A DNA stretch of 64,000 bases, taken from assembly GCA_947626395.1 (NCBI GenBank), contig CANQRU010000006.1, positions 1-64,000 on the forward strand, written 5' to 3'. Made by a program: the position numbers and the translations under genes. The notes below the pieces were generated by a model that had not been told where the DNA came from, made no database searches, and saw only the letters and a list, made by a program, of their open reading frames with translations. Position 1 is the stretch's first letter; every line of letters begins with the position of its first letter. Below are positions 3,004 to 35,707 of the stretch, one piece after another. Source of the DNA: an uncultured Lachnospiraceae bacterium (lineage in GTDB: Bacteria > Bacillota > Clostridia > Lachnospirales > Lachnospiraceae).

Positions 3004-3255
3004 ATGATAAGAAAACGCGCTGACGGGAACAGTAGCGGAGAGCGAACGGCCAGAGAGGGACGCATACGGTGGAAGCGTCCTGCGGGAGATTTCCGTGAAG
3101 ACCATCCCCGAGCGGCCCTTAATCGGGTCCGGTGAATCCGTTATCTTCACGAATGAAGTGGTCTGAGCGGCATGTCCGCTCACTCAATAAGGGTGGAACC
3201 GCGATTTGAAAATCGTCCCTTCTTGCAGCAGTTGCAGGAAGGGATTTCTTTGTAT
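3004..3255 (+). promoter_or_regulatory. T-box leader controlling thrS
   Basis: The leader has the conserved T-box bulge sequence AAGGGTGGAACCGCG at 3189-3203, preceded by a long structured Stem I region and followed by a terminator hairpin. T-boxes bind a specific tRNA and sense its charging through the free CCA end pairing with the T-box bulge. Position before thrS predicts threonine specificity. A GAAGACCATC context at 3097-3106 contains ACC (Thr) and is a reasonable specifier candidate. When uncharged tRNA-Thr binds, antitermination should switch thrS on. Confidence 0.93.
3216..3251 (+). terminator. T-box-regulated intrinsic terminator
   Basis: TCCCTTC...GGAAGGGA with an inner TGCA/TGCA pair forms a hairpin followed by ATTTCTTT. 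Its left arm directly follows the T-box sequence, the normal arrangement for exclusive terminator and antiterminator folds. Confidence 0.85.
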
Positions 3256-34191: not shown

Positions 34192-34586
34192 AGTGCTATC
34201 CACAGGTGTATGTAATGAACAGCCTAGAGGCGGTAGAAACGTACTGCAAAGCCTTCGGTGCGGAGGTGACGTTCGCGATAAAGAACGCGGCCGGGACCGC
34301 CTACGAACACTGCGAGCTTTCGGTTGACGGCGAACCCATACTTGCCGCGGCAGAGGCGGCGGAGCCCTACGCGAAGCCCTACGACGTCAGCGTGATCCAT
34401 CGGTTGAAGTGGCAGACGATGACGTTCAACGCGTTTGAGCTCGGAAGCAGGGAAGCGGTGAAAAACGCGCTCGACGTTCTGAGCGACGGCGGCGTGGTTC
34501 TGGAACCCATCTATGAGCTCCCCTGGAACAGCTGCTGCGCCACCGTCATCGACCGCTATGGCGTGTGCTGGTGGATAGGAATTTAA
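34188..34586 (+). CDS. VOC-superfamily protein (PhnB/glyoxalase-like)
   Basis: 132 residues; PQVYVMNSLEAVETYCKAFGAEVTFAIKN and the closing SCCATVIDRYGVCWWIGI fit PhnB-type vicinal oxygen chelate proteins, which bind small molecules or metals. No clear metal-ligand triad can be assigned. Start at 34188 is supported by GGAGGGAA 7 bases upstream and by the 4-base overlap with the GNAT gene. Confidence 0.82.
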   Translation: MKCYPQVYVMNSLEAVETYCKAFGAEVTFAIKNAAGTAYEHCELSVDGEPILAAAEAAEPYAKPYDVSVIHRLKWQTMTFNAFELGSREAVKNALDVLSDGGVVLEPIYELPWNSCCATVIDRYGVCWWIGI

Positions 34587-34626
34587 GGGACTGCAAGGGC
34601 ATTACACGGAAGATGCCAAAAAATGA

Positions 34627-34654
34627 TTGACTATTTGAACAGATATGGTAAAAT
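34627..34654 (+). promoter_or_regulatory. promoter of a short RNA
   Basis: TTGACT (34627-34632), 16 bases, TAAAAT (34649-34654). An intrinsic terminator follows only about 70 bases downstream, so it serves a transcript of about 100 bases. Confidence 0.75.
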
Positions 34655-34660
34655 ACTATT

Positions 34661-34759
34661 GAAGGAGAGTCCTGCCGATAAGTGGACATTCAAAAAGCGA
34701 TGGTGCCGCCGAGGTGGCATCACATTGCAGGGCTATGGGGACATAGTCCTGCAATTTTT
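34661..34759 (+). ncRNA. short structured RNA, candidate type III antitoxin
   Basis: About 100 bases between a sigma-A promoter and a strong terminator. It contains a stable stem GGTGCCGC-CGAG-GTGGCATC (34702-34721) before the terminator hairpin. Immediately downstream lies a ToxN/AbiQ-like toxin remnant. Type III systems encode an RNA antitoxin, then a terminator, then the toxin, so position and size fit. Clear tandem repeats, usual for ToxI, are not visible, so the antitoxin identity is inference. Confidence 0.55.
34723..34759 (+). terminator. intrinsic terminator of the short RNA
   Basis: ATTGCAGG-CTATG / CATAG-CCTGCAAT with a GGGGA-type loop, followed by TTTTT. In type III toxin-antitoxin loci a leaky terminator in this position sets the RNA-to-toxin ratio. 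Confidence 0.9.
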
Positions 34760-35079
34760 ACGGGGGAATCGCATGGCGCAATCACAATTGGAAGTCTACC
34801 GATGAGCGCCCTTTTCTGGGAGTAATCATTGTCTGCAATACACATAAATATTGTGTTCCACTGTCTAAGCCAAAGAAAAAGCATGAGAAAATGCGGGATA
34901 AGATAGATTTCAAAAAGATAATCTATGATGATACGCTTATAGGTGTTTTAAATTTTAATCTCATGATACCTGTCGAGGATGCACAAATACAACGAATTGA
35001 TACGGAAATACGACAAGATTATTTTAACGGCTCTCGGCTTGATATTTACCGAATCACACCGCAGGATCACACAGAATAA
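34747..35079 (+). pseudogene. ToxN/AbiQ-family type III toxin remnant
   Basis: One frame is open from 34747 to a stop at 35079. From 34807 it reads RPFLGVIIVCNTHKYCVPLSKP, then KKKHEKMRDKIDFKKI, then GVLNFNLMIPVEDAQI. This order (RPF-G, Y-PLS-PK-KH, G-LNF-MIPV) is that of ToxN/AbiQ endoribonucleases. The first 25-30 residues are missing: no ATG, GTG or TTG occurs before 34891, and the upstream bases are the terminator. The C-terminus is also short, and a second frame (34979-35161) may hold part of it after a frameshift. The toxin is therefore almost certainly inactive. Confidence 0.75.
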
Positions 35080-35088
35080 TGAAAATGC

Positions 35089-35123
35089 TTTACTTTTTCG
35101 TTACAATAGCATATACTATATGC
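35089..35123 (+). promoter_or_regulatory. promoter and palindromic operator of the RelB-YoeB pair
   Basis: TTTACT (35089-35094), 17 bases, TATACT (35112-35117). The palindrome GCATAT-ACT-ATATGC (35109-35123) covers the -10, suited to autorepression by the RelB-type antitoxin. Confidence 0.8.
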
Positions 35124-35139
35124 GAAAGGAGTGTTTCCT

Positions 35140-35409
35140 ATGGCACAGACAGTTAATGTGAATTTTCGCATGGATGCGGATTTGAAGAAAAGCATGGAGC
35201 AGACCTGCTCTGATCTGGGGATGTCCATGAGTACGGCATTTACCATTTTCGCAAAAAAGGTAAGCCGGGAGAAGCGTATTCCGTTCGAAGTATCGGCGGA
35301 TCCCTTCTATTCGGAAAGCAATATTCGCTATCTGGAACGGAAAAAGAGGGAAATAGACGAGGGCAAAGCGCATATTGCGGAGCATAGCTTGATAGAGGTG
35401 GATGACTAA
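35140..35409 (+). CDS. RelB/DinJ-family antitoxin
   Basis: 89 residues with the ribbon-helix-helix start typical of the family: MAQTVNVNFRMDADLKKSMEQ, then LGMSMSTAFTIFAKKV. The C-terminal helix (IRYLERKKREIDEGKAHIAEH) should wrap the toxin. Start at 35140 is 9 bases after GAAAGGA; the in-frame GTG at 35131 sits on the ribosome site. It overlaps the toxin gene by one base (TAATG). It probably represses its own promoter through the 35109-35123 palindrome. Confidence 0.93.
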   Translation: MAQTVNVNFRMDADLKKSMEQTCSDLGMSMSTAFTIFAKKVSREKRIPFEVSADPFYSESNIRYLERKKREIDEGKAHIAEHSLIEVDD

Positions 35410-35669
35410 TGCGGTTATCGTGGGAGGATGAGGCCTGGGCGGATTACCTTTATTGGCAGGGAGAGGATAAAAAGACCTTAAAGCGCATTAATATGCTGAT
35501 AAAAGATATACAGAGAAATCCATATGAGGGTTTAGGAAAGCCGGAGCCGCTAAAGGAAAACCTAAGCGGGATGTGGAGCAGACGCATAGATGAGGCCAAC
35601 AGGATAGTCTATTATGAGAAATACGGCGGCATTATTATCGTATCATGCCGGGGCCATTACGATGATTAA
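35409..35669 (+). CDS. yoeB: Txe/YoeB-family mRNA interferase toxin
   Basis: 86 residues of RelE-superfamily fold: MRLSWEDEAWADYLYWQ, NPYEGLGKPEPLK, MWSRRIDEANRIVYY and the C-terminal CRGHY. The conserved Glu (GKPEPLK), Arg (SRRI) and His (RGHY) expected for the YoeB ribosome-dependent cleavage site are all present, so it looks intact. YoeB is classically paired with YefM; here it follows a RelB/DinJ-type antitoxin, a combination also common in Firmicutes. A terminator follows. Confidence 0.93.
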   Translation: MRLSWEDEAWADYLYWQGEDKKTLKRINMLIKDIQRNPYEGLGKPEPLKENLSGMWSRRIDEANRIVYYEKYGGIIIVSCRGHYDD

Positions 35670-35707
35670 ATGAATTACGGTGACCGTCTTCGGACAACAC
35701 CTTGAGG

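Follow-up and report, generated by a model that had tools for sequence, protein, structure and literature searches.

The window, a stretch of 64,000 nucleotides from the genome of an uncultured Lachnospiraceae bacterium, carries at positions 34627-35079 what sequence comparisons confirmed as a decayed type III toxin-antitoxin locus of the ToxN/AbiQ type, with a putative antitoxin RNA upstream of the broken toxin gene. The original prediction had proposed a promoter, an RNA of about 100 bases and a strong terminator followed by the toxin frame, and this order is present as sequence features:

34627..34654, forward strand: predicted promoter of the antitoxin RNA (TTGACT, 16 nt, TAAAAT), found by promoter scan, at a position that matches aligned relatives
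34661..34759, forward strand: putative antitoxin RNA unit of about 100 nt, its start placed from the promoter and its end from the T tract
34664..34699, forward strand: single ToxI-like pseudoknot unit of 36 nt, from alignment and by-eye register, the pseudoknot being predicted
34664-34665 with 34675-34676 (S1) and 34669-34672 with 34684-34687 (S2), forward strand: predicted pseudoknot helices
within 34664..34699, forward strand: A-rich linker after S2, the putative cutting site of the toxin
34701..34722, forward strand: 9-bp hairpin in place of a second repeat, from folding and covariation
34724..34759, forward strand: intrinsic terminator with a 14-bp stem, a 4-nt loop and a T tract, from sequence and folding
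34773..34805, forward strand: what is left of the toxin gene's 5′ end, with the start codon, ten codons in all and a stop after the frameshift
34803..35011, forward strand: toxin remnant, corresponding to the middle part of ToxN and lying within the open frame 34747-35076, from profile and alignment
35012..35042, forward strand: junction of about 31 nt without counterpart in the sibling-species locus L034, from alignment

The open frame at 34747-35076 matched the Pfam family ToxN_toxin (PF13958; E 2.5e-22, profile positions 26-102 of 159), AbiQ of PADLOC (7.1e-15) and, in the Protein Data Bank, the ToxN chains 2xd0, 7d8o and 4ato (E 8e-7 to 4e-6). These matches concern the surviving middle part of the toxin. 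A search of the Protein Data Bank with E values up to 10 gave no match of the frame to CptN chains, and an NCBIfam search of the locus gave zero matches. The profile and structure matches upheld the predicted kinship with ToxN/AbiQ, and the motifs that had been read in the frame (RPF-G, PLS-PKKKHEKM and LNF-MIPV) are all there.

A promoter scan of positions 34300-35700 returned five sites against 2.4 (sd 1.4) expected, and the site at 34627-34654, in which TG precedes the second hexamer, is therefore unremarkable alone; its support comes from its occurrence at the same place in the aligned relatives. The downstream RNA (34661-34759) scored 121.9 bits with the covariance model R1, among whose building sequences the window sequence is included, and folding gave a minimum free energy of -44.3 kcal/mol (z -5.56), with none of 200 shuffles equally stable. 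Its anatomy appears intact, comprising the 36-nt unit, the covarying hairpin and the 14-bp stem of the terminator, whose arms of 14 nt each lie at 34724-34737 and 34742-34755. On an alignment (A1) of the window with 25 relatives, which together represent 26 of 28 distinct RNAs (L010 and L011 omitted), the drawn structure paired 87.7%, compared with 35-42% for slid versions, and contained 34 doubly changed cells compared with 10.2 in shuffles. Its doubly changed pairs, eight against a shuffled mean of 5.9, were reached in 48 of 500 shuffles, while most other measures beat the shuffles. In the hairpin, five of nine pairs were changed on both sides and 93.6% of the cells were paired.

The pseudoknot gets no covariation support within the clade because its helices hardly vary. 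In the window, S1 can form its two outer pairs and S2 all four of its pairs; a third S1 pair can form in only 4 of the 26 rows of the alignment. RNAalifold recovered the hairpin from A1, but neither the terminator nor the drawn pseudoknot, and plain folding, a method unable to represent pseudoknots, places a nested hairpin in the first 33 nt. An Rfam search with the RNA at E values up to 10 returned three chance-level families, none of them a bacterial antitoxin, and hence no credible match. The sole Rfam family above its gathering score in the window is a T-box leader at 3011-3223.

We found 28 loci encoding relatives of the toxin in our genome collection. The RNA core is present at 25 of them, and the remaining three loci are either truncated by a contig end or begin at one. 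Nine relatives have full toxins of 170-185 aa, each encoded in a single frame downstream of the same RNA and terminator, in agreement with the expectation that intact homologues would follow a similar RNA. Compared with such complete relatives, the window is without about 77 nt of coding region shortly after the toxin start, which shifts the frame, and the alignment also bore out the predicted shortening of the C-terminus. The ten-codon remnant MAQSQLEVYR (34773-34802) lines up with the N-terminus of the intact relatives. The earlier statement that the toxin has no start codon was thus correct in part: the original start survives at 34773-34775, whereas the downstream frame is startless before an internal in-frame ATG at 34891, which opens a 62-aa ORF. 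When compared with six intact relatives, the remnant showed 23-30 synonymous and 7-11 amino-acid-changing codons; between intact copies these values were 13-33 and 4-15. The remnant lies within the intact range, so it was under purifying selection until recently; the death of the toxin is accordingly recent, and it is no surprise that the RNA is still intact. Several toxin relatives (L037, L042, L050, L060 and L061, 60-86% identity) were in Gastranaerophilales, Bacteroidales, Bacteroides or Alistipes bins; these contigs are perhaps mis-binned.

The history of the locus could be followed in other members of the genus. The locus of a sibling species, L034, is 94.6% identical to the window over 1,638 columns and has the N-terminal deletion in common with it. 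L034 keeps the C-terminus of the toxin followed by an FMN reductase gene, both of which the window has lost in a second and larger deletion. As the first deletion is shared and the second is confined to the window, the decay took place in two steps, the first of which either arose in a shared ancestor or was transferred from one lineage to the other. Another species of the genus has an empty site (L078), at which the next gene lies no more than about 40 nt beyond the end of the small-protein gene (window position 34594) and has a product identical to the FMN reductase of L034 at 195 of 213 residues; neither a type III module nor a RelB/YoeB pair is present at that site. In the window, a RelB/YoeB type II toxin-antitoxin pair lies directly downstream of the locus (35140-35669). 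This stretch matches five further loci of the genus (L089-L093) without the rest of the window neighbourhood, and from its distribution the pair looks separately mobile. These comparisons also bear on whether the deletions are assembly artefacts. The window genome is a draft of 87 contigs and the C-terminal deletion was seen in one assembly alone, but L034, which is from another species, has its N-terminal deletion at the same place, making assembly error an extremely improbable explanation.

The remnant proved unusually conserved. Between the window and L034, positions 34803-35011 differ at 2 of 209 sites, both synonymous, whereas the flanks differ at 89 of 1810 (p 0.004); extension to 35023, which includes two differences beside the breakpoint, gave 4 of 221 (p 0.039). 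Such low divergence fits neither plain neutral decay nor selection on the RNA, and recent exchange between the two species is one possibility that could explain it. In L034, a 176-aa frame (1611-2141) runs from inside the RNA hairpin through the terminator into the truncated toxin. Together with the internal ATG at 34891 of the window, this frame and the conservation of the remnant could be taken to mean that the truncated gene still yields a partly active protein from an alternative start. We regard this as very improbable, given that the long frame is cut in the window by a stop in the terminator stem and that the C-terminus is gone.

The original prediction had expected antitoxin repeats in the intact relatives, but these were absent. 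No direct repeat occurs within the window RNA, and the aligned relatives of the clade likewise lack tandem repeats and carry a single unit. By eye, the 36-nt unit is in register with the canonical ToxI repeat, which is in tandem in L014, L019 and L002. The locus has the toxin family, the promoter-RNA-terminator-toxin order and the unit register of the ToxIN/AbiQ family, from which it differs in that the toxin is broken at both ends and one pseudoknot unit plus a hairpin replaces the repeats. A second locus in the same genome (G000:C86:8251-8736; L002, L031) also encodes a member of the ToxN_toxin family in the same layout with a terminator, but its antitoxin units, about three in number, stand in tandem with a period of 34, and its toxin frame is open, with a product 39% identical to the window remnant over the matched part. 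In a tree of 33 selected and labelled toxins and the window remnant, for which the RNA type was assigned by inspection together with a period scan and loci with unclear RNA were omitted, the 22 toxins with single-unit RNA and the 11 with tandem repeats needed only one label change, across a deciding branch that is weak (71/12; present in 72% of bootstrap trees). The type III clade to which the locus belongs has an unusual antitoxin of a single unit.

According to PMC5086642, repeats are a key feature of these antitoxins: the published criterion for type III loci demands a tandem array, ToxI-Pa, ToxI-Bt and antiQ have 5.5, 2.9 and 2.8 repeats, respectively, and antiQ needed at least 1.8 repeats. 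PMC12373285 puts ToxI/antiQ at 2.8-5.5 repeats, and TenpI and CptI at 2.1. An antitoxin that naturally has a single pseudoknot unit falls outside these ranges. One unit can nevertheless suffice, as an engineered single CptI repeat was fully antitoxic according to PMC4627078. The CptIN system described there, from Eubacterium rectale, is likewise a type III system of a gut member of the Clostridia, although its 45-nt unit is made from two genetic repeats. Single-unit antitoxins were not the subject of any title or abstract opening in our literature search, the coverage of which did not extend to the Blower 2012 survey.

We also examined how often the RNA occurs without its toxin. Model R1 was searched in 397 genomes drawn from the family (E up to 1e-6) and found 36 places in 29 genomes; a comparable sample of 397 genomes was searched with the toxin profile, and toxin status was assigned by comparing coordinates. 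The 38 tabulated places consist of 34 of these 36 and four of 14 genus-search places that were unlisted among the 36, the window itself being one of the 14. Nine genus places (28-31 bits), of which G002:C219 lies near a weak toxin match, were dropped as probably due to chance, and of two further family places, G482:C181 and G029:C15, one has an unbroken toxin match and the other a truncated one. Among the 38, the toxin was unbroken at 17 places, broken at eight including the window, and without a profile match at 13. Here a toxin counts as intact if the profile match beside the RNA is unbroken, and some of these matches have a stop near the end; two of the 13 places classed as RNA-only for want of a profile match (G054:C65 and G246:C56) keep a few toxin codons. 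One of the intact places, G371:C68, has tandem repeats.

A promoter matching at least 9 of 12 positions was present at 15 of the 17 intact, all eight broken and 6 of the 13 RNA-only places, compared with 315 of 3800 draws of random same-length stretches from the same loci. Pseudoknots of the tabulated places were judged by eye from the sequences; by this inspection four RNA-only places looked complete in promoter, pseudoknot unit and terminator (G054:C65, G457:C7, G470:C41 and G229:C28). The GG of the first helix is gone from G363:C75 and the terminator from G196:C29, and the remaining seven RNA-only places have lost more or are weak matches. The best RNA-only place is L132 (G054:C65; 119.8 bits), which has 190 nt in common with the window (34609-34798) and whose RNA, 89.3% identical to that of the window, is the closest one from beyond the genus in a comparison of 38 RNAs. 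The toxin frame there ends after eight codons and has no toxin profile match, while the TATAAT second hexamer is kept and, by eye, the terminator stem is kept by paired changes.

Certain related sequences were of other kinds. At L131 (G457:C7), a complete-looking single-unit RNA and its promoter lie just upstream of a non-ToxN gene, the product of which reads by eye like a GNAT acetyltransferase. In the same genus as the window, L065 and L073 have a hairpin and terminator like the 3′ half of the RNA but neither a pseudoknot nor a toxin, and the sequence that follows at L073 looks like a possible group II intron. G009:C19 and G012:C5, also of this genus, resemble the hairpin and terminator only and may be plain terminators.

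The original prediction had suggested that the RNA could serve as an orphan antitoxin, directed against related toxins and among them toxins carried by phages. In its fuller form, selection would keep the RNA as an anti-addiction module against ToxN arriving on mobile elements or phages. The intact look of the promoter, RNA core and terminator in both the window and L034, the toxinless but well preserved RNA of L132 and the excess of promoters at RNA-only places over random draws all point this way. However, the promoter and RNA differ between the window and L034 at 5 of 139 sites, a rate similar to the 89 of 1810 in the flanks (p 0.68), so that this comparison of two genomes, which has little power, gave no sign of retention by selection. 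Moreover, RNA places without a toxin match are expected to recur in the family if the toxin is lost first, which yields the same picture without selection, and the absence of such a promoter from 7 of the 13 RNA-only places, several of which also lack parts of the RNA, is what neutral decay predicts.

The phage and viral scans provided no partner for such an RNA either. The toxin remnant had no match among 50,697 phage records (E 1e-5). In viral contigs, no relative was confirmed among 92 candidate stretches obtained from the remnant or 57 obtained from the toxin alignment; both scans are seeded with short peptide patterns and for the most part recover close relatives. A single RNA pattern sought in viral contigs was nowhere matched exactly. 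Among plasmids, seven records matched, each at under 60% identity. The suggested protective role was thus neither supported nor refuted; in the window its only positive evidence is the integrity of the RNA, and we consider selection for it quite unlikely. A broader proposal, that the clade reduced its antitoxin to one pseudoknot unit and a hairpin, forming a compact, self-sufficient RNA that is able to outlive its toxin, remains as a solitary antitoxin in several genera and protects against incoming toxins of the same clade, we likewise hold to be unlikely.

The reading that we prefer, with a probability of roughly 0.87, is that a type III module was gained, that the toxin died first and that the RNA unit was left without a partner. 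A ToxIN/AbiQ-like module of a Lachnospiraceae clade would have inserted between the small-protein and FMN reductase genes. While the module was alive, one promoter would have produced the short RNA, most transcription ending at the terminator and a minority reading through into toxin mRNA. The toxin, an endoribonuclease, would have trimmed the RNA at the A-rich linker, and the pseudoknot would have held the toxin inactive. The first loss was that of about 77 nt close to the toxin's 5′ end, common to the window and the sibling species; the second deletion, private to the window lineage, removed the C-terminus of the toxin together with the reductase gene. The RNA unit would survive because a lone antitoxin is harmless, and it is probably still transcribed, with no partner at the locus and presumably no present function. 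Counting against this toxin-first reading are the remnant, which is less diverged than its flanks, against the prediction of plain neutral decay, the 176-aa frame of L034, which may be a translated fusion there, and the complete-looking RNA-only loci elsewhere, which leave room for a toxin-free function.

The decay itself is ordinary, being that of a pseudogenised type III locus. The locus leads, however, to a type III clade without the tandem repeats that are normally used for recognition. Repeat-based searches would miss such single-unit systems, and the window RNA lacks a credible match in Rfam. The RNA-only loci provide concrete sequences for asking whether an RNA antitoxin persists alone.
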